Positions 2,439-55,682 of a stretch of 64,000 nt of DNA are shown here, piece by piece (position 1 is the stretch's first letter; every line of letters starts with the position of its first letter). A program made the translations under genes and the position numbers. Where the stretch lies: the NCBI GenBank assembly GCA_945877575.1, contig CAMDUE010000004.1, positions 124,001 through 188,000 on the forward strand, read 5' to 3'. A model generated the notes under the pieces. That model saw only the letters and a program-made list of their open reading frames with translations. It was not told the origin of the DNA and made no database searches. This stretch comes from Chitinophaga pinensis. Its GTDB lineage: Bacteria; Bacteroidota; Bacteroidia; NS11-12g; UBA955.

Positions 2439-2634
2439 TCGGTAGTTGGTAGTTGGTAGTTGGTAGTTGGTAGTTGGTAGTCGGTAGTTGGTAGTCGGTA
2501 ATGAGCTACGGACAACGGACTCTGGACTAGAGACTAGGGCCGGGTGACGGGTGACAAGGGTCTGAAACCCGATACCCGATACCCTATACCCTATACCCGA
2601 TACCCGATACCCGATACCCAACTACCAACTATAC
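2439..2634. repeat. degenerate heptanucleotide array 1
   Basis: Twenty-eight consecutive 7-nt units run in perfect phase from the base after the upstream stop codon. Blocks change along the array: TTGGTAG/TCGGTAG, then CGGACAA, CGGACTC, TGGACTA, GAGACTA, then GTGACGG, then ATACCCG/ATACCCT, and finally ACTACCA. The last block is the reverse complement of the first, so the ends can pair into a long imperfect hairpin between two convergent genes. The array overlaps the final codons and the stop of the minus-strand gene at 2622. Because 7 is not a multiple of 3, all frames translate into heptapeptide repeats; those open frames are artefacts. Confidence 0.9.
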
Positions 2635-4967
2635 ACCTTGCCTTTTTGGTTCATCCAATAACTGCGATCTGGTTCTGAGATGAGAAGGTAATTTTGGAAC
2701 ATTTGATCTACAATTTCATTGAAATGATAATTGCTGATAATGGAGTTGCCTCCTTTTGTGACAAGTTCATAACCCCCTTCATCTTCGGAGTGGGGGGATT
2801 GAACTATCCAAATTCCTGGAAATTGGGAGGATTCAATTTGGAGGTAATCATCAGGTAGAATTGTGTTGCCTTTGAGGTCAATAAGTCCCATAAAACCATC
2901 AATGGAATTGGTCAGTAGATACTGCAAATTATCAGATCTTGAAATGCTAAAATGGGGGGTGGGGTGCACCAGTTTTTCAGTGATGATGTTCAACAAGTGC
3001 GTTCGTGAAACAGTGCTGTCTTTTTTGAGTTTAAAGGTTGTATCTGTGGTAAATCCAATTAGGCTATCGTTCAGGATGGCAATTGATTGGGCCGTTGCTT
3101 TGCTAAGTTCCCAATTGGAAGGATTAAGCCATTTTTGTCCCCAGGAAGCAGAATTTCCGCGTTTATTGTTGGACGTGTTGATTTTGACTGAAGTGGTAAA
3201 TATTTTATTATCTACCGTTTCAAATTGTATTTTTTTGTGAACTTTTATGGACTGAAAGTCTTTGTTGTAGATGGTTGTTTCGGCTTTATCATTGATGCAG
3301 AAATACACTTGACCGTTTGATTGGATCCAGAGTGGTTCTTTTTTCAATCCCACGGCTATGATGGAAAGTGCTGAATCGGTAAATTTGGCAATATTTTGTT
3401 TGTTTACCCAATAAAAACCGGGTACAAATTGAGTACAAGACTGAAAGGTGTCGGAAATAGTTTTAAAATTTGAATCAAGAAAAAAGTGGTTCGTGCCTTT
3501 TTGAACCAAGATTCGTGTTTTTGGGATATTCCAAAGATCAACGGGAGATTGCAAGCTGTATTCGTTGAGTTCAGAAATATCATCAAATTCAAATGGAGTG
3601 AGAATCTTGCCTTGTTTATTGTAGATGGCCCAATGTGTTCCATTGAATAGGGCTCCTAAATTAGATGAAGAATCAAAGTAAATTTTTGGGAATTTGCACG
3701 GTAAAAGTTCCTTTCCAGTGGAGTTTAATAGGCCATATCGTTCTGAATTAATAACAAATGCTAAGTTCTTTTGGATTTGCAAAGGAAGATCGCTGTATTT
3801 GTTGTTGGAGATAGGGGTTCCGTCTTTTTCTATGTAATAATATTCTGGGTTGTCGAACAAATCATATTTCATGACTAAGGCGCACTCGGGTATTAGGTGC
3901 GCACCATTAGAAAACCATTGGGTATGATATTTTTTCGCAAATGGAAAGGCGAAGTCGTATGTGGAATCAGTCCATTTCTCTAAAGTAATGGAATCTACAA
4001 AGGCAAATTTGCCGCGTTTATTGTAGTAGGGTACAGGGGTAATTTTGAGATACCTGAGCAAATAGGATGCTGTTTTTTTGTGTTTTCCGAAGGGATATTT
4101 ATTCAGGTAATTTGAATATGCTTGGGTAGAGTTTATTTGTTTGCTTTGGATAAAGGCTAGATTATCGGCTAGTGATAATGCTTGTTTCTGTTGGGGCGCT
4201 TTCGGATAATCATCAATGTATTTCAAATAAGCATCTTCGGTATTTTGATATTCTGCCTCATTGAATGCCATTTTGTACAAGGAGTCTGTTGCTTGATTGT
4301 ATAGGCTCAATAAATGTGTTGGATAAGCAGAACTATCGGGCATGGCTCTCCAAATCAAAGTATATTTTTGGAGATCTGAGATTTTATTGGTTGATAGCGC
4401 TGTTTTAAATGCAATGGTATCATTTAAAGACGACAAACAATAGATGATGTGGGGTAAGGAAATTTTTGTGTTAATGTTTCCATTTTTGGGGAAATGTTTT
4501 TCTAAAGTGGCTTGTTCGTTTTGGAAGAATTTCAGCAATTCGAGATTTTGATTGGGATCTGAATTGGAGCGCTCTAAGTTGTATTTGTCGTAGAGGAGTT
4601 TGCGGTAATACAGGTTTAAATAGGTTTCATCAAAATAATACCATTGAAGAAATTCTTGTTTTTTCTCAGGATTTATCAAATAAGTTGGAGCTGTTATAGA
4701 AGCATTTCTAGAGAAGAAAAGTGCCTGATCTAGCTGTTGGTGATGGGTGGATAATCTTGATAACGAGTGCCAATAAATTGGATTGGATGTGTCAGCCGTT
4801 TTAGATCGTTTAATCAGTTTTTTTTCGGCCTTTAAAAATTGACTATCAACTATGTTTCTATGAATTCGGTATTGAGAGTTTAGCCAAGGTTTAGGTGATT
4901 GCGCATTCAGAGCGCTAATATTAATCAAGCAGAGTAAAATAAGATGAAACCCAACTCTCAAATTCAT
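2622..4967 (-). CDS. large secreted WG-repeat protein
   Basis: About 780 residues with an N-terminal signal peptide (hydrophobic run ending LNAQ). The N-terminal third looks helical (TPR-like). From about residue 310 onward there are several WG/KWG-type repeats, for example 'GKFAFVDS', 'YGLLNSTGKELLP', 'WAIYNKQGKILTPFEFD' and 'MGLIDLKGNTILPDDY', which typically form beta-propeller-like modules. A TATATTTG -7 box at 4983-4990 overlaps the upstream in-frame ATG at 4985, so the start MNLRVGF is preferred. The last four codons (Tyr-Ser-Trp-stop) lie within the heptanucleotide array, so the C-terminus has been set by the repeat. Function unknown. Confidence 0.7.
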   Translation of the reverse strand: MNLRVGFHLILLCLINISALNAQSPKPWLNSQYRIHRNIVDSQFLKAEKKLIKRSKTADTSNPIYWHSLSRLSTHHQQLDQALFFSRNASITAPTYLINPEKKQEFLQWYYFDETYLNLYYRKLLYDKYNLERSNSDPNQNLELLKFFQNEQATLEKHFPKNGNINTKISLPHIIYCLSSLNDTIAFKTALSTNKISDLQKYTLIWRAMPDSSAYPTHLLSLYNQATDSLYKMAFNEAEYQNTEDAYLKYIDDYPKAPQQKQALSLADNLAFIQSKQINSTQAYSNYLNKYPFGKHKKTASYLLRYLKITPVPYYNKRGKFAFVDSITLEKWTDSTYDFAFPFAKKYHTQWFSNGAHLIPECALVMKYDLFDNPEYYYIEKDGTPISNNKYSDLPLQIQKNLAFVINSERYGLLNSTGKELLPCKFPKIYFDSSSNLGALFNGTHWAIYNKQGKILTPFEFDDISELNEYSLQSPVDLWNIPKTRILVQKGTNHFFLDSNFKTISDTFQSCTQFVPGFYWVNKQNIAKFTDSALSIIAVGLKKEPLWIQSNGQVYFCINDKAETTIYNKDFQSIKVHKKIQFETVDNKIFTTSVKINTSNNKRGNSASWGQKWLNPSNWELSKATAQSIAILNDSLIGFTTDTTFKLKKDSTVSRTHLLNIITEKLVHPTPHFSISRSDNLQYLLTNSIDGFMGLIDLKGNTILPDDYLQIESSQFPGIWIVQSPHSEDEGGYELVTKGGNSIISNYHFNEIVDQMFQNYLLISEPDRSYWMNQKGKVYSW

Positions 4968-4982
4968 AGGTGTATATAACTT

Positions 4983-4990
4983 CAAATATA
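4983..4990 (-). promoter_or_regulatory. -7 box TATATTTG
   Basis: An exact TAnnTTTG match on the minus strand, 15 nt upstream of the start codon at 4967 of the WG-repeat gene. It overlaps an alternative in-frame ATG, which is therefore unlikely to be used. Confidence 0.55.
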
Positions 4991-14827: not shown

Positions 14828-15106
14828 ATGAAAAAGCGCATCAATATTTCCATAGATACTGAAATCCACGAGCAAGCCCAACGGCATGCATTCAGGCGTG
14901 GAATTAGTTTGAGTAATTTCATTGAGACGGAACTGTGTCGTGCGATGAAAAATCCACAGGGAACAACGAATTTTGATTATCCTAATGCTTGGTCGCAATT
15001 GGATTTAGAACAGCGGCAACATTTGATTCAATATATGAATTTTCTGATAGAAAAGTCGGGAGCCGGTGATGTTCCATTTGCTGTAGAGGGGATAGGGAGG
15101 TTGTGA
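14828..15106 (+). CDS. ribbon-helix-helix protein (DUF6364-like)
   Basis: A 92-residue protein whose first 45 residues fit a ribbon-helix-helix DNA-binding fold: 'KKRINISIDTEIHEQAQRHA' supplies the beta strand and first helix, and 'RRGISLSNFIETEL' the turn and second helix. This resembles antitoxin-type DUF6364/ParD-like proteins. No PIN, RelE or other toxin gene follows; instead a heptanucleotide array begins within 7 nt of the stop. It is either an orphan antitoxin/regulator or has lost its partner. It is likely co-transcribed with the lipoprotein 4 nt upstream. Confidence 0.6.
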   Translation: MKKRINISIDTEIHEQAQRHAFRRGISLSNFIETELCRAMKNPQGTTNFDYPNAWSQLDLEQRQHLIQYMNFLIEKSGAGDVPFAVEGIGRL

Positions 15107-15112
15107 AGTTAG

Positions 15113-15322
15113 TCGATGGTCGATGGTACATGGTAGTTGGTCTGTGGTCGATGGTCGGTGGTCGGTGGTCGATGGTCGGTGGTCGATGGTCTGAAGTCGG
15201 TGGTCGGTGGTCCGAAGTCGATGGTCGGTGGTCGATGGTCCGAAGTCTGTGGTCTAACTCCCGAACCCCGAAACCCGGCACCATCTACCCTCTACCCTCT
15301 ACCAGCTACCAGCTACTAGTTG
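15113..15322. repeat. degenerate heptanucleotide array 2
   Basis: Thirty 7-nt units in uninterrupted phase. The left two thirds are TCGATGG, TCGGTGG, TCTGTGG and TCTGAAG/TCCGAAG variants; the right third changes to CCCGAAC, CCCGAAA, CCCTCTA and CCAGCTA. The right-end units are near reverse complements of TAG-NNGG units, so the array is again G-rich on the left and C-rich on the right. It lies between two co-directional genes and begins 7 nt after the stop of the ribbon-helix-helix gene. Long open frames through it on both strands encode only heptapeptide repeats. Confidence 0.9.
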
Positions 15323-23112: not shown

Positions 23113-23120
23113 TTAATATA

Positions 23121-23212
23121 ATTTGTAACAAAGCGAACCCAAATTTGGCAATTATTCGTAACAAAGCGAATCCAATTTTGGCAATAATTTGTAATAAAGC
23201 GAATGCAATCCT
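23121..23212. repeat. 33-bp tandem repeat, 2.8 copies
   Basis: Units begin at 23121, 23154 and 23187 (the last partial). Each has GTAACAAAGCGAA (third copy GTAATAAAGCGAA) followed in the first two by CCAAATTTGG or CCAATTTTGG. The first of these is a perfect 10-bp palindrome. The unit length is a multiple of 3, so a minus-strand frame reads as an 11-residue repeat (FALLQIIAKIG). Its place directly behind the ATPase promoter suggests a set of operator sites rather than coding sequence. Confidence 0.75.
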
Positions 23213-26118: not shown

Positions 26119-26242
26119 TGAAGTTTTACTTTTTGCGTCTTATCTTGCAATTAATTTTTAGCAGGATGATAAAAAACTTTTGAAGTTTTACTTTTTGCGT
26201 CTTATCTTACAATTAATTTTTAGCAGGATGATAAAAAACTTT
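26119..26242. repeat. 62-bp tandem duplication
   Basis: Two adjacent 62-bp copies (26119-26180 and 26181-26242) differ at a single base (TATCTTGC versus TATCTTAC). Each copy includes the presumed promoter region, the leader and the first codons ATG ATA AAA AAC of the SGNH protein gene. The upstream copy's ATG therefore starts a 5-codon frame that ends at TGA. It is a recent duplication, since it is almost perfect. Confidence 0.85.
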
Positions 26243-29200
26243 TTCAATCAAAACAGAAATTTCTCGTTGCTTTTGATGGGCCTTTTGCTCGTTTTTCCAG
26301 CCATTGCTCAGCCACCAGCGGGCGCCGTGGCGGCAAAACCCAATATCATTTATTATGCCGGCGGCAAGTGCGATTTTTATGATGCCAACAGCAATTTGTT
26401 GCTTTCTGTGGATGCCGCGGAAGCGGGATGGTCGGCTACCCCTGCGAAAGCTGCATGGGTAGTGGTAACCCCTACGAGTGGTGGATATTATGAATTTCCC
26501 AATTATTCGAGCAATGCATCAATTTGCAATACCCATCAATATTTACAGTCATTTTGGAATTCAGATACCATTTTCAATGAGTTGGTGCTTTTATCTGGGG
26601 TGAACAGCACGGCGAATTTGATGTTCAAAGCGAAACAAGTTCTGAAGGTGACCAATTATGATTTTTCGAAATCGTTTGTATTGAATACGGATTATTCGGT
26701 GAGTGGCAAGGTCATTACACAAAAATCAGCTGCAGTGTCTGCCACGTATGCCACCAAAGGAGGTGTTAAGGGCAATGGGCAATCGAATGGACTCATGAAT
26801 ACCAACCCCACTTCATGGACATGCGTTACCTATGTTCCGGATCGATCTGATTGGGGTGGTAATTCAATTTTTTCGTATAAGGGGGATAAGTTACCCAAGA
26901 CCATGTCTAAATTGAAGAACAAACAATCTTTGGTGATACAGGCATATGGCATGAGTATTACCGCGGGGTTGAATGTGAGTGGATTTGCAGGCGATGATAA
27001 GAATTTCAAGCCAACCAAGCCTTACATGCATAGCTATGTAGATTTATTGGGTGAAGGGTTGTTGGCTAAGTTCGGTGGAAACATCACGATGATCAATGGG
27101 TCATGTGGCGGAAAAACCGTTGCTTGGATTGATCAATATTGTAAAAGTATGGTCAACCCCAATAATCCCGATTTGGTGATTTTGGATATGGGTATGAACG
27201 ACATTTGGGGTACAACGGATGCGGCGTTTAAAACCAGTATGCAATCTTGTATCGATAAGATAAAAAAAGATTGCCCCAATGCGGAGTTTATACTGGTTGG
27301 TAATATGTTGCCCGATGTAAATTCTCAAGGTTCTCCCGCCAACGGAGACGTGCTGATGTATGGGTTTTTGTCGCAGTTAAAATCATTGGAATCAGCTGGG
27401 GTTGTTGTGATGGATATGACAACAATGAGTGATAGTATCTATCGTAGAAAGGGTGCCAAACACTGTACTTCGAATTCTTTGCATCCGAATGATTATTTGG
27501 CCAGGTGGTATGCTCAAGGTTTGTTGGAGGTGTTCAATGATGGTTCATCACCTAGCCCCAATTCGAGTAAGACCTATTATGTAAACAGCACAGGCAATAA
27601 CACCGATGGTTTGACATTGGCCACAGCATGGACGTCTCTTGCAAAAGTCAATGCACAGGTATTTCAACCCGGCGATAGAGTTTTGTTCGAAGGTGGCAAG
27701 ACATTTACGGGTAATATAGAATTGGATGCCTTGGATGGTAATATTGCCCTGAAGCCCATCGTGTTCTCTACTTATGGGTCTGGTAGAGCGACTATTAATA
27801 CCACGGTTACGAATAAATGTGGTTTCAAAGCCACCAATTTACAAGGAGTGCATATCAGCAATTTGGTGTTTAAGGGTCCTGGAAATGGCACGCAAAAGGA
27901 CATAGATGGGGTGTTGTTTTTTACGGATAAAACGGCTGGTTATTTATCGAATATCGACCTAACAAATGTGGAGGTTGCAGGGTTTGGCTACTGTGGAATA
28001 CGTTTTTATTCTAGTTGGTCTGCCACGGTGAAGGCAGGTTACCGCGGGGTGCGTATCGATAGTTGCTCGGTGCATGACTGTAGGGAAAATGGCATTGTTT
28101 CATTTGCTTATGATGATCAAACGACCAATTTTTATCACCACAGGGATTTTCAAATTCGCAATACCGAAGTATATAATATTACAGGCTATGCTGCTGCGAG
28201 TCACAAAGGCAGTGGTATTGTGCTTTCTCAAATTGATTATTCACTCATTGAGCGATGCGTTGCCTACAATACAGGTACACTGAATTCAGCTTGCGGTGGA
28301 CCGGGAGGCATTTGGGTTTGGTCTGCCGATAACATAACCATACAGTATTGCGAATCTCACCACAATTCCTCTGGGACATCAACTGGTTGCGATGGCTTGG
28401 GTTTTGATTTGGATGGTGGCGTAACCAATTCGGTTGTTCAATATTGTTACTCCCATGATAACGACGGCGCCGGCTATTTGTTGGGTAATTTCACAGGAGC
28501 TCGCGCTTGGGGTAGCAATACGGTGCGATACAATATTAGCATCAATGATGCCCGCACGAATAACAGTGCGGTGACTCTATTTACTGCCCCAAATACCACC
28601 TGGAACGGATTGAATTTTTACAACAATACGGTGTACCTGAGTGGTTCAACCAAGAACAAATACACTACATTCGGTGCATTTCAAATGACGGATTATGGAA
28701 CCAATATGTCGGGGGTGAAATGTTATAACAACATATTTCAGGTATCTGGATCAGGTAATGCCGGCCCGCTTTCATTGGTTCATATTCCTGCCACCTTTGT
28801 GTCGCAAAATCCCTTGCTAATGGGAAATTTGTATTGGAGTTCTGGTGGTGCCTTTAAAATTACCTATGGCAATGCATACAGTAGTTTGTCGGCATTTCGT
28901 TCTACCGGCAACGAAAACTTAAATGGGAATAATGTGGGTGTGGAAGCCGATCCCTTATTGACGGGCATTGCCAATGCGGCGTCATTGTTGTATCCCAAGG
29001 ACAACAATTCATTGAGTCAATTTCAATTGGTTTCGAGTTCTCCCGCAAAAGATGCTGGGCTTGATTTATCAAAGGAAATGGGCCTTTCCGCGGGTGCCCG
29101 CGATTTTTGGGGTGGTTCAATACCCACCGGTACTAAATATGATATTGGTGCGCACGAATATGGCGGCGTAGTTTTATCTGTGGCAGATGGTCTCAAGAAG

Positions 29201-46451: not shown

Positions 46452-47477
46452 ATGTTTAATCTTAGAAATTCGAAGCAATTTTATTCCGGCTCATGGGAGT
46501 GGGCTGAGGTTTCTTTTCGGGGGATAAAATATCGGTTTAGAATCCAAAGAGACGACCTGATTGACCCGATTGTTACAGGAAATAAACTTCGGAAACTTTG
46601 GGGTTATGATCAAAAAAGTGGTTGGATCAGACATAACGGTATTTTAACTGTTGGTGGCGCTTACAGCAACCATTTGGTGGCTGTAGCAGCGTTCTATTCA
46701 GATCCACGCAGACGTGTTGTGGGTATTGTAAGAGGTGAACCCAACAGTGACAGCAAACATTTACAAATGTGCCGCGATTACGGCATGGAATTGCATTTCA
46801 TTAGCAGAGCTGATTACAAGCTCAAATACAAATACATTTACGAAAACTTCGTCACCGAAGAGTTTTATCCCATGGTCATTCCCGAAGGCGGTAGAGGTGC
46901 TTTTGGCATGTTGGGTTTTGATTATGCCGTTGCTGGATGGGGTGATTTCGTTCCTGAAACAGTAGTACATGCATCTGCAACGGGCACAACGGCGGCGGGT
47001 TTATTCAAATATGTTCGTGAGCGTGGTTTGAAAGACACCCGAATTGAGGCAATAGCCGTTTTGAAAAACGACTTGGAACAAAAGCGTAACATTCAAAAAA
47101 TCATGCGTGGCGACGACCCTTATGATCCAAAGGGAAATATGTACTGGGAACAGGAAAATTTAGAAAAAGAGCGCCTTGAAAGGGAGAAATACGGAGATGA
47201 GTTTTACGAGGAGAGAAAAAAGTGGGATGAGGAATATGATTCTAAATTTTTTGCAGACCGTTACAATATTGAAATTAACTCCCATTATATCTTCGGAGGG
47301 TATGCCAAATCCACTCCAGAATTGCGTGATTTTGTAACTTCCGCCAAAGCCGAAACCGGAATACACTTTGACTCTATCTACACCGGAAAGGCCCTTTATG
47401 CTATGTTGGAAGGCTTTGAATCGGGCCGTTTAAACCCTGATACCACGTTGTTTTATCATACGGGGGGTATTGGGTAG
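46452..47477 (+). CDS. PLP enzyme, ACC deaminase/D-cysteine desulfhydrase-like
   Basis: A 341-residue fold-type II PLP protein. The family's 'QRDDLIDPIVTGNKLRKLWG' carries the cofactor Lys, and 'LTVGGAYSNHLVAVAA' follows, with 'VIPEGGRGAFGMLGF' and 'HASATGTTAAGL' as further blocks. Members deaminate ACC or release sulfide from D-cysteine. Between about residues 205 and 270 there is a very charged insertion ('YWEQENLEKERLEREKYG', 'DEFYEERKKWDEEYDSKFF') absent from typical enzymes of about 300-330 residues. The stop codon TAG is formed by the first unit of heptanucleotide array 3. Confidence 0.82.
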   Translation: MFNLRNSKQFYSGSWEWAEVSFRGIKYRFRIQRDDLIDPIVTGNKLRKLWGYDQKSGWIRHNGILTVGGAYSNHLVAVAAFYSDPRRRVVGIVRGEPNSDSKHLQMCRDYGMELHFISRADYKLKYKYIYENFVTEEFYPMVIPEGGRGAFGMLGFDYAVAGWGDFVPETVVHASATGTTAAGLFKYVRERGLKDTRIEAIAVLKNDLEQKRNIQKIMRGDDPYDPKGNMYWEQENLEKERLEREKYGDEFYEERKKWDEEYDSKFFADRYNIEINSHYIFGGYAKSTPELRDFVTSAKAETGIHFDSIYTGKALYAMLEGFESGRLNPDTTLFYHTGGIG

Positions 47478-47653
47478 TTGGTAGTTGGTAAAGGGTAGTT
47501 GGTAGTTGGTAGTTGGTATAGGGTAGTTGGTAGGGGGTCGGGGGTCGGGGGTCGGGGGTCGCGAGCCGCAGATTAAAGACTACAGACTACGGACTACGGA
47601 CTACGGACCACGGAACATAGACCACAGACCTCAGACTACAGACTACGGACTAT
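47472..47653. repeat. degenerate heptanucleotide array 3
   Basis: Twenty-six 7-nt units in uninterrupted phase. The order is GGGTAGT/TGGTAGT, then GGGTCGG repeated, then AGACTAC/GGACTAC, ending GGACTAT. The left block has TAG in every frame of the plus strand, and the right block has TAG in every frame of the minus strand (TAGTCC). It lies between two convergent genes and provides the stop codons of both: TAG at 47475-47477 (+) and TAG read from 47652 to 47650 (-). Confidence 0.9.
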
Positions 47654-48162
47654 TTCATCATCGCATCAACGTTACCCGTCAAAATGAGGTGATAGCCGTT
47701 GGGGTTTTTGTCAAAGTAGACGTCAATGTGCTTACGAAATCGGCCAAAGGTGTTGGATGTTTTATAATCGGCGGTAACCCAACCGGTGTCTTTTGGTGAA
47801 ACCGGGGTTTTGGTGAAATCAGTAGCAGTGCAACTACAACCAGGGTGAAGCGCGGTAATGGTGATGGGCTTCATTGATTGGTTAACGAAAAAGAACTTTG
47901 TGGTTGCCGGCGGACCTGAAGGAACATCTTTGAAGTCGTGAATGAGTTCATTCCAAATGATGGAATCAGGAGCTGAAATGGAGTTTTGGAGGCTTGTAAG
48001 AGGATTGGGAGCTGGGTTTCCATTTTGTATAATGGCAGTATTGGTTGTCGTTGTGATTGTGGTGTTGCTCGTAGATGAGGAAGTCTCTTTATTGGAATAA
48101 GACAATTGGGTGTTGCAAGCAGATATTATCACTAAAGCTATGATCAAATACGAATATTTCAT
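47650..48162 (-). CDS. DUF1573 lipoprotein
   Basis: A 170-residue protein with a lipobox ending 'ISAC', a Ser/Thr-rich linker (about 25-45) and a DUF1573 domain. The domain's hallmark cysteine motif is present in 'TALHPGCSCTATDF', followed by 'GRFRKHIDVYFDKNPNGYHL' and 'LTGNVDA'. DUF1573 domains are Ig-like (ASH-type) and their role is unknown. Its start overlaps the upstream gene's stop by 4 nt. The final stop codon is contributed by heptanucleotide array 3. Confidence 0.82.
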   Translation of the reverse strand: MKYSYLIIALVIISACNTQLSYSNKETSSSTSNTTITTTTNTAIIQNGNPAPNPLTSLQNSISAPDSIIWNELIHDFKDVPSGPPATTKFFFVNQSMKPITITALHPGCSCTATDFTKTPVSPKDTGWVTADYKTSNTFGRFRKHIDVYFDKNPNGYHLILTGNVDAMMK

Positions 48163-55529: not shown

Positions 55530-55648
55530 TTTTTTCGGGTTTCGGGTTTCGGGTTTCGGGGGTTGCTGGTCTCTAGTCGTTGGTCGTTGGTCCACGGACT
55601 ATGGACTATAGACTATGGACCATGGACCATGGACTACAGACCATGGAC
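55530..55648. repeat. degenerate heptanucleotide array 4
   Basis: Seventeen 7-nt units in uninterrupted phase: GGGTTTC repeated, then GTTGGTC, then CACGGAC, TATGGAC, TATAGAC, CATGGAC and TACAGAC. Unlike the other arrays it lies between divergent genes, directly abutting the start codon of the hypothetical gene (-) and ending 34 nt before the -7 box of murQ (+). In this position it would form part of the upstream promoter or leader regions rather than 3' ends. Confidence 0.88.
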
Positions 55649-55682
55649 TACAAATTTACGCAGAAGATTTAGTGAAGAAATG

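Follow-up and report, generated by a model that had tools for sequence, protein, structure and literature searches.

Tandem, degenerate heptamers occur in the intergenic DNA of Cyanobacteria, the STRR heptamers of Calothrix and Anabaena being of this kind, and the REP/BIME elements of enterobacteria are built on a unique 35-40 nt palindrome that is moved by RAYT transposases and has no heptamer period. As described in the sections of Rehm et al. (2015; PMC4692102) drawn on here, the GGGAATC / GGGGA(C/T)T heptamer repeats of Xanthomonas and Nostoc form inverted convergent pairs, with 70-75 cases in Xanthomonas, and directly behind genes their G strand lies on the coding strand, not more than 50 bp from the stop codon or overlapping it; Calothrix is also mentioned there. 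Direct repeats of TAACTGA in Beggiatoaceae, Cyanobacteria and some Bacteroidetes give stops in three frames when the repeats are forward, the heptamers overlap stop codons, and relatives with the same gene neighbourhood are without repeats (MacGregor, 2015; PMC4679880, in the sections drawn on here). Since heptamers that overlap stops and the remark on all frames appear in these sections of the two papers, the kind of feature considered below, and that remark on it, are already published. Literature searches for heptamer repeats in Bacteroidota gave no closer precedent.

Array 3 and the ends of its two genes

The window, by which we mean the whole 64,000-nucleotide stretch analysed, contains arrays that Tandem Repeats Finder reports with a period of 7. 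When lags of 4-12 were tested on the window and on the closest relative, a sister species (G011), period 7 alone gave tracts. Nearly all units can be written as GTNNNNN on one strand, and the commonest in this genome (G000) are GTAGTTG, GTACCGG and GTCCATA. Array 3 has a left arm (47466-47564, + strand) that reads GGTATTG GGTAGTT GGTAGTT GGTAAAG and later passes into GGTCGGG units, with its GT strand on the + strand in the sense of a PLP-dependent enzyme gene (46452-47477, + strand; ACC-deaminase/desulfhydrase-like). The right arm (47574-47652, - strand) is inverted relative to the left, with TAGTCCG/TAGTCTG units on the - strand and its GT strand in the sense of the convergent DUF1573 gene (47650-48162, - strand).

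The first-pass annotation had proposed that arrays supply the stop codons of flanking genes, and at array 3 they do so on both sides. The PLP gene ends TTG TTT TAT CAT ACG GGG GGT ATT GGG TAG, in which the stop (47475-47477) is the TAG of the first GGTAGTT unit, and the in-phase heptamer just before it, GGTATTG (47466), codes the final two residues of a protein that ends HTGGIG. The DUF1573 gene ends GAT GCG ATG ATG AAA TAG, its stop (CTA at 47650-47652 on the + strand) falling within the last unit of the right arm. In G011 the two genes stand tail to tail without an array and their stop codons overlap. The PLP C-terminus is HTGGQMGVETLNPSN there and HTGGIG here, 11 residues having been replaced by 2, and DUF1573 ends DAMMKP there and DAMMK here, a loss of 1 residue. 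The convergent pair is kept in G011 and in nine other congeners; in the nine the PLP and DUF1573 matches end roughly 47-186 bp apart, a distance that includes the PLP tail, and this tail runs for about 10-18 residues after HTGG in most of them and for 4-5 in two. No array was seen behind the PLP stop in the congener sequences inspected. The conserved domains finish ahead of the arrays, with a weak PALP match to residue 338 of 341 in the PLP protein, the DUF1573 match ending at 165 of 170, and that of a DUF2130 protein beside another array at 387 of 397.

These comparisons of sequence support the reading that array 3 replaced real gene ends, the direction of change being set by parsimony within the genus. 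As in G011, the PLP and DUF1573 stops probably overlapped in the ancestor; the incoming array would then have taken the place of about 35 bp of tail common to the two genes, removed a net nine residues from PLP and one from DUF1573, and supplied both stops. Loss of residues at the array border, which the first-pass annotation had named as the sign to look for in three proteins, is thus seen in these two. As a separate observation, the PLP protein is 52% identical to its G011 orthologue and the neighbouring DUF1573 protein 78%, so that the PLP gene evolves fast.

The remaining arrays of the window divide the proposal further. Array 1 (2441-2625) consists of [GGTAGTT]8, ACGGACT-type units, and then [ACCCGAT]n and AACTACC, and it gives a WG-repeat protein gene (2622-4985, - strand) its last two codons and its TAG (2622-2624); the gene ends GTG TAT AGT TGG TAG, of which TAT AGT TGG TAG had been correctly assigned to the array. 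A 180-aa protein gene on the other side (1896-2438, + strand) stops at its own TAA (2436-2438), 3 bp before the array. The gene upstream of array 2 (15112-15316; [GTCGATG-type]21 followed by an inverted right arm) likewise has its own TGA (gene 14828-15106, stop 15104-15106), 5 bp before the array, and array 4 (55533-55650; TTTCGGG/GGTCGTT followed by GGACTAT-type units) lies between divergent genes and has no stop to supply.

Truncation of the WG-repeat protein was considered and rejected by alignment. Its array-free homologues mostly end within a few columns on their own stops (KGNLFAE/FAD in homologues, KGKVYSW here), and the C-terminal length equals that of most of them, so this protein lost nothing at the border. 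The outcome that the first-pass annotation had named as refuting its idea was thus obtained for the WG-repeat protein, and also for 7 of 14 in-array stops with G011 orthologues, where the two proteins end at the same residue.

Two observations on the window concern other matters. Naive calls produce false ORFs or N-terminal extensions on the AC strand of the arrays, which is largely open, at 47527-47799 (+), 14982-15284 (-) and 55530-55595 (-); this is a warning for annotation. A near-perfect 62-bp duplication near a gene start (26119-26243) and a 33-bp tandem repeat (23118-23209) have no relation to the heptamer arrays.

Placement of the arrays and identity of in-array stops

We assembled 63 arrays from the window and 40 further stretches of the genome, an incomplete set picked by a match to array 3 or by the GT pattern and not by position, and took gene ends from a simple codon-usage ORF caller. 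The boundary rule was conservative; the WG stop, inside array 1 by eye, was scored as 4 bp outside. The arrays lie between convergent genes in 32 cases, tandem genes in 19 and divergent genes in 8, and 4 are at contig edges. Gene 3′ ends that face an array stop inside it in 43/82 cases and inside or within 13 bp in 67/82. On the GT side the latter count is 64/72 (41 of the 72 inside the array), compared with 3/10 on the AC side (p = 1.5e-4) and with 8/25 for GT-side 5′ ends (p = 1e-7), and 5′ ends mostly lie away from arrays. TAG accounts for 37/43 in-array stops and for 20/164 stops of other genes (Fisher p = 3e-20). Several contigs of the assembly begin in or beside an array (C5:172-255, C7:1-168 and C23:1-114), which suggests that arrays break assembly and that others may be lost from it.

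The spacing of convergent genes bears directly on how these stops came to lie in arrays. In this genome the median convergent gap is 4.5 bp without an array (n = 26) and 178 bp with one (n = 29), and at gaps of about 4.5 bp any sequence lodged between the genes must touch both of them and break at least one stop.

The sister species, at 74% completeness and with about 1.09 Mb read, gives small orthologue counts but the same layout with different units, GTGATCG being the commonest. Its GT-facing 3′ ends lie inside or within 13 bp of an array in 30/36 cases, and 17/31 of its arrays lie between convergent genes, compared with 131/864 of its gene pairs. In-array stops there are TGA in 9/16 cases, against 163/790 elsewhere. 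The type of in-array stop thus follows the unit vocabulary of the species, TAG here and TGA there, which argues for capture and not for adaptation to end translation. At each of the 3 convergent array sites of G000 where G011 has no array, the stop codons overlap in G011. Of the 14 in-array stops with G011 orthologues, those that do not share the end residue differ by -20, -9, -2, -1, -1, +2 and +2 residues. The largest change is in the DUF2130 protein (L130), which ends KEKFGL here and RQKFEDLNGGKGLDSGKKDDFSDDED in G011, 22 residues having been replaced by 2; of three array-free congeners whose ends were read, one stops at KAKFDELNS, a little longer than here, and the other two carry longer tails.

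In the light of the observed placement, orientation and stop identity of the arrays, of the array-free site in G011 and of the altered C-termini, the best reading overall is that the stops were probably captured as a by-product of arrays lodging between near-touching convergent genes. On this proposal the arrays would be heptamer repeats scattered through intergenic DNA, built as [GTNNNNN]n -> <- [GTNNNNN]m so that the GT strand runs inward from both sides. They would settle chiefly at the 3′ junctions of genes, most of all where a convergent pair would otherwise touch. With no spare junction sequence, the array border would come to sit on the stop codons, selection on the C-terminus would limit how far inward it can shift, and a stop trinucleotide of the outermost unit would become the stop of the gene, TAG with GTAGTTG/GTCCGTA here and mostly TGA with GTGATCG in the sister species. 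We infer that placement at 3′ ends reflects tolerance, with purifying selection acting elsewhere, and not a selected function, and new arrays may arise, through copying and slippage, from units that already belong to the vocabulary of the genome.

Two results pull against capture as a by-product of tolerance. A period-7 tract, with different units, is present in G011 too at 14/21 of the facing ends tested, and such sharing of sites could mean that arrays act there. The inward orientation and the folding of the arrays, described below, are also not explained by tolerance alone. One shared site differs from the others seen: the array at L168:3025-3122 has an orthologue at G011:C1:8485-8626 with G000-like units, and the adjoining gene is 98.8% identical; a recent transfer is possible.

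Orientation, folding and frame closure of the arms

In every two-armed array the GT strand runs inward (+ on the left, - on the right), in 39/39 arrays of this genome and 14/14 of G011, and this orientation holds in divergent gaps as well, which makes it intrinsic to the array. Arrays 3 and 1 fold better than their dinucleotide shuffles (z = -4.0 and -5.1, respectively). Such structure could mean that the arrays have a function as 3′ elements, forming long imperfect hairpins that shield the 3′ ends of mRNAs or terminate transcription arriving from either side between convergent genes, with stop capture incidental. The enrichment between convergent genes and the sites shared with G011 despite different units fit that account, and in Xanthomonas, according to the sections of PMC4692102 drawn on here, transcript starts or stops are more frequent at heptamer repeats that form G4 than at control repeats. 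We nevertheless consider it unlikely. A search for compensatory change between arms found the opposite, since among 38 two-armed arrays of this genome the arms of one array pair worse than arms drawn from different arrays (-35.8 versus -42.8 kcal/mol), and a fraction of 0.9992 of permutations pairs at least as well. Sites resembling intrinsic terminators, with a GC-rich stem and a U tract, are rare whether or not an array is present, with no terminator-like site in array 3, only 1/51 at array-facing convergent ends and 4/56 at convergent ends without an array, and no T-tract after arrays. Arrays are also absent from most congeners. The weak pairing within arrays looks, as an observation in its own right, as if near-perfect palindromes had been removed.

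Frame closure offers another explanation, namely that the unit is selected, or spreads, because TAG recurring every 7 bp leaves no frame open and lets an array insert at gene ends and terminate translation cleanly. Its premise holds for the perfect unit: on the GT strand GGTAGTT repeats put TAG in all three frames, as 7 and 3 are coprime. Across the 98 arms of this genome the claim made in the first-pass annotation weakens, with 61/98 closing three frames within 63 nt and 5/98 closing none, and the mean number of frames closed is 2.41 in the arms, 1.06 on the opposite strand and 2.18, barely lower, in dinucleotide shuffles. The stops inside arrays at GT-facing 3′ ends and the two clear gene-tail replacements, PLP and DUF2130, are in keeping with the idea. 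So are perfect GGTAGTT arrays, which occur in many phyla; among 100 of them a gene stop lies in or at the GT side in 36 and the AC side in 6, although part of this difference is trivial because the AC strand is without stops. When only stops 0-50 bp outside single-arm GGTAGTT arrays are counted, 19 are on the GT side and 9 on the AC side.

Against frame closure, arms without stops sit in the same places. Stop-free arms meet gene ends inside or within 13 bp in 8/11 cases and all-frame-closing arms in 32/34. Each of the four GT-facing 3′ ends in G011 whose arm interior is stop-free falls somewhere from 1 bp inside to 14 bp outside its array. Stop supply therefore does not explain placement. Half of the in-array stops, moreover, fall at the last residue of the orthologue, and the inward orientation is found in divergent gaps too. 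As the cause of placement, frame closure is largely refuted, and we regard it as very improbable that the unit was selected or spreads on this account. The notion that an array always terminates translation cleanly describes, in view of the intrinsic orientation and the gaps of about 4.5 bp, a by-product and not an explanation.

Distribution and comparison with known systems

GT-pattern arrays are present in 45/108 genomes of the order, with the most in this genome, and most congeners are without arrays. Each array-bearing species has its own heptamer vocabulary, GTAGTTG/GTCCGTA in G000, GTTTCTG in G002, GTTTAGA in G003, GTTAGTTGTCAATT in G004 and GTGATCG/GTCTTTG/GTCAGCC in G011. It is conceivable, if doubtful, that the GTNNNNN vocabulary of each species is rapidly replaced, and that an active process seeds inverted arrays into touching convergent tails and homogenises units genome-wide. 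The case for copying between loci would rest on the shared vocabulary, and a search for multi-unit blocks copied between loci yielded little, no more than 7 complex segments of 24 nt or longer being common to different arrays. The arrays repeatedly become coding sequence at gene ends, and which stop codon is used there depends on the vocabulary of the repeats. Array 3 is a clean case of repeat-driven C-terminus replacement, its site being empty in a sister species, and the change of units at shared sites across the genus is a tractable system for the copying and homogenisation of dispersed short repeats.

By description, the arrays resemble the STRR heptamers in being tandem, degenerate and intergenic. 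They share with REP/BIME elements a dispersed, inverted arrangement at gene 3′ ends, and differ in having a heptamer period. Judged as MITEs or transposons, they have inverted arms but lack a constant body. The flanking DNA was replaced at the single empty site that was compared, and inspection showed no target-site duplication there.

In the sections of PMC4692102 and PMC4679880 drawn on here, which also underlie the comparisons that follow, three results have no counterpart: the comparison of C-termini, the change of in-array stop from one sister species to the other, and the overlapping stops at empty sites. The TAACTGA repeats are alike in being heptamers with stops in three frames and repeat-free relatives, and unlike in having one fixed unit, repeated two to six times and mostly placed directly before start codons, and no inverted two-arm architecture (PMC4679880); the units here are different ones, and 5′ ends stand mostly away from the arrays. 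The Xanthomonas and Nostoc repeats share with ours the 7-nt period, degenerate units, a mostly intergenic position, convergent inverted pairs and a place close to or over the stop codon with the G-bearing strand in the sense of the gene, as well as neighbouring genes that stay constant while the repeats change among related species (PMC4692102). Their units contain a run of three or four G, which is quadruplex-forming, and lie mostly between aligned genes (PMC4692102), whereas here GT alone is fixed, a G tract of at least 3 occurs in only some stretches (GGTCGGG), each species has units of its own, and the arrays lie mostly between convergent genes.
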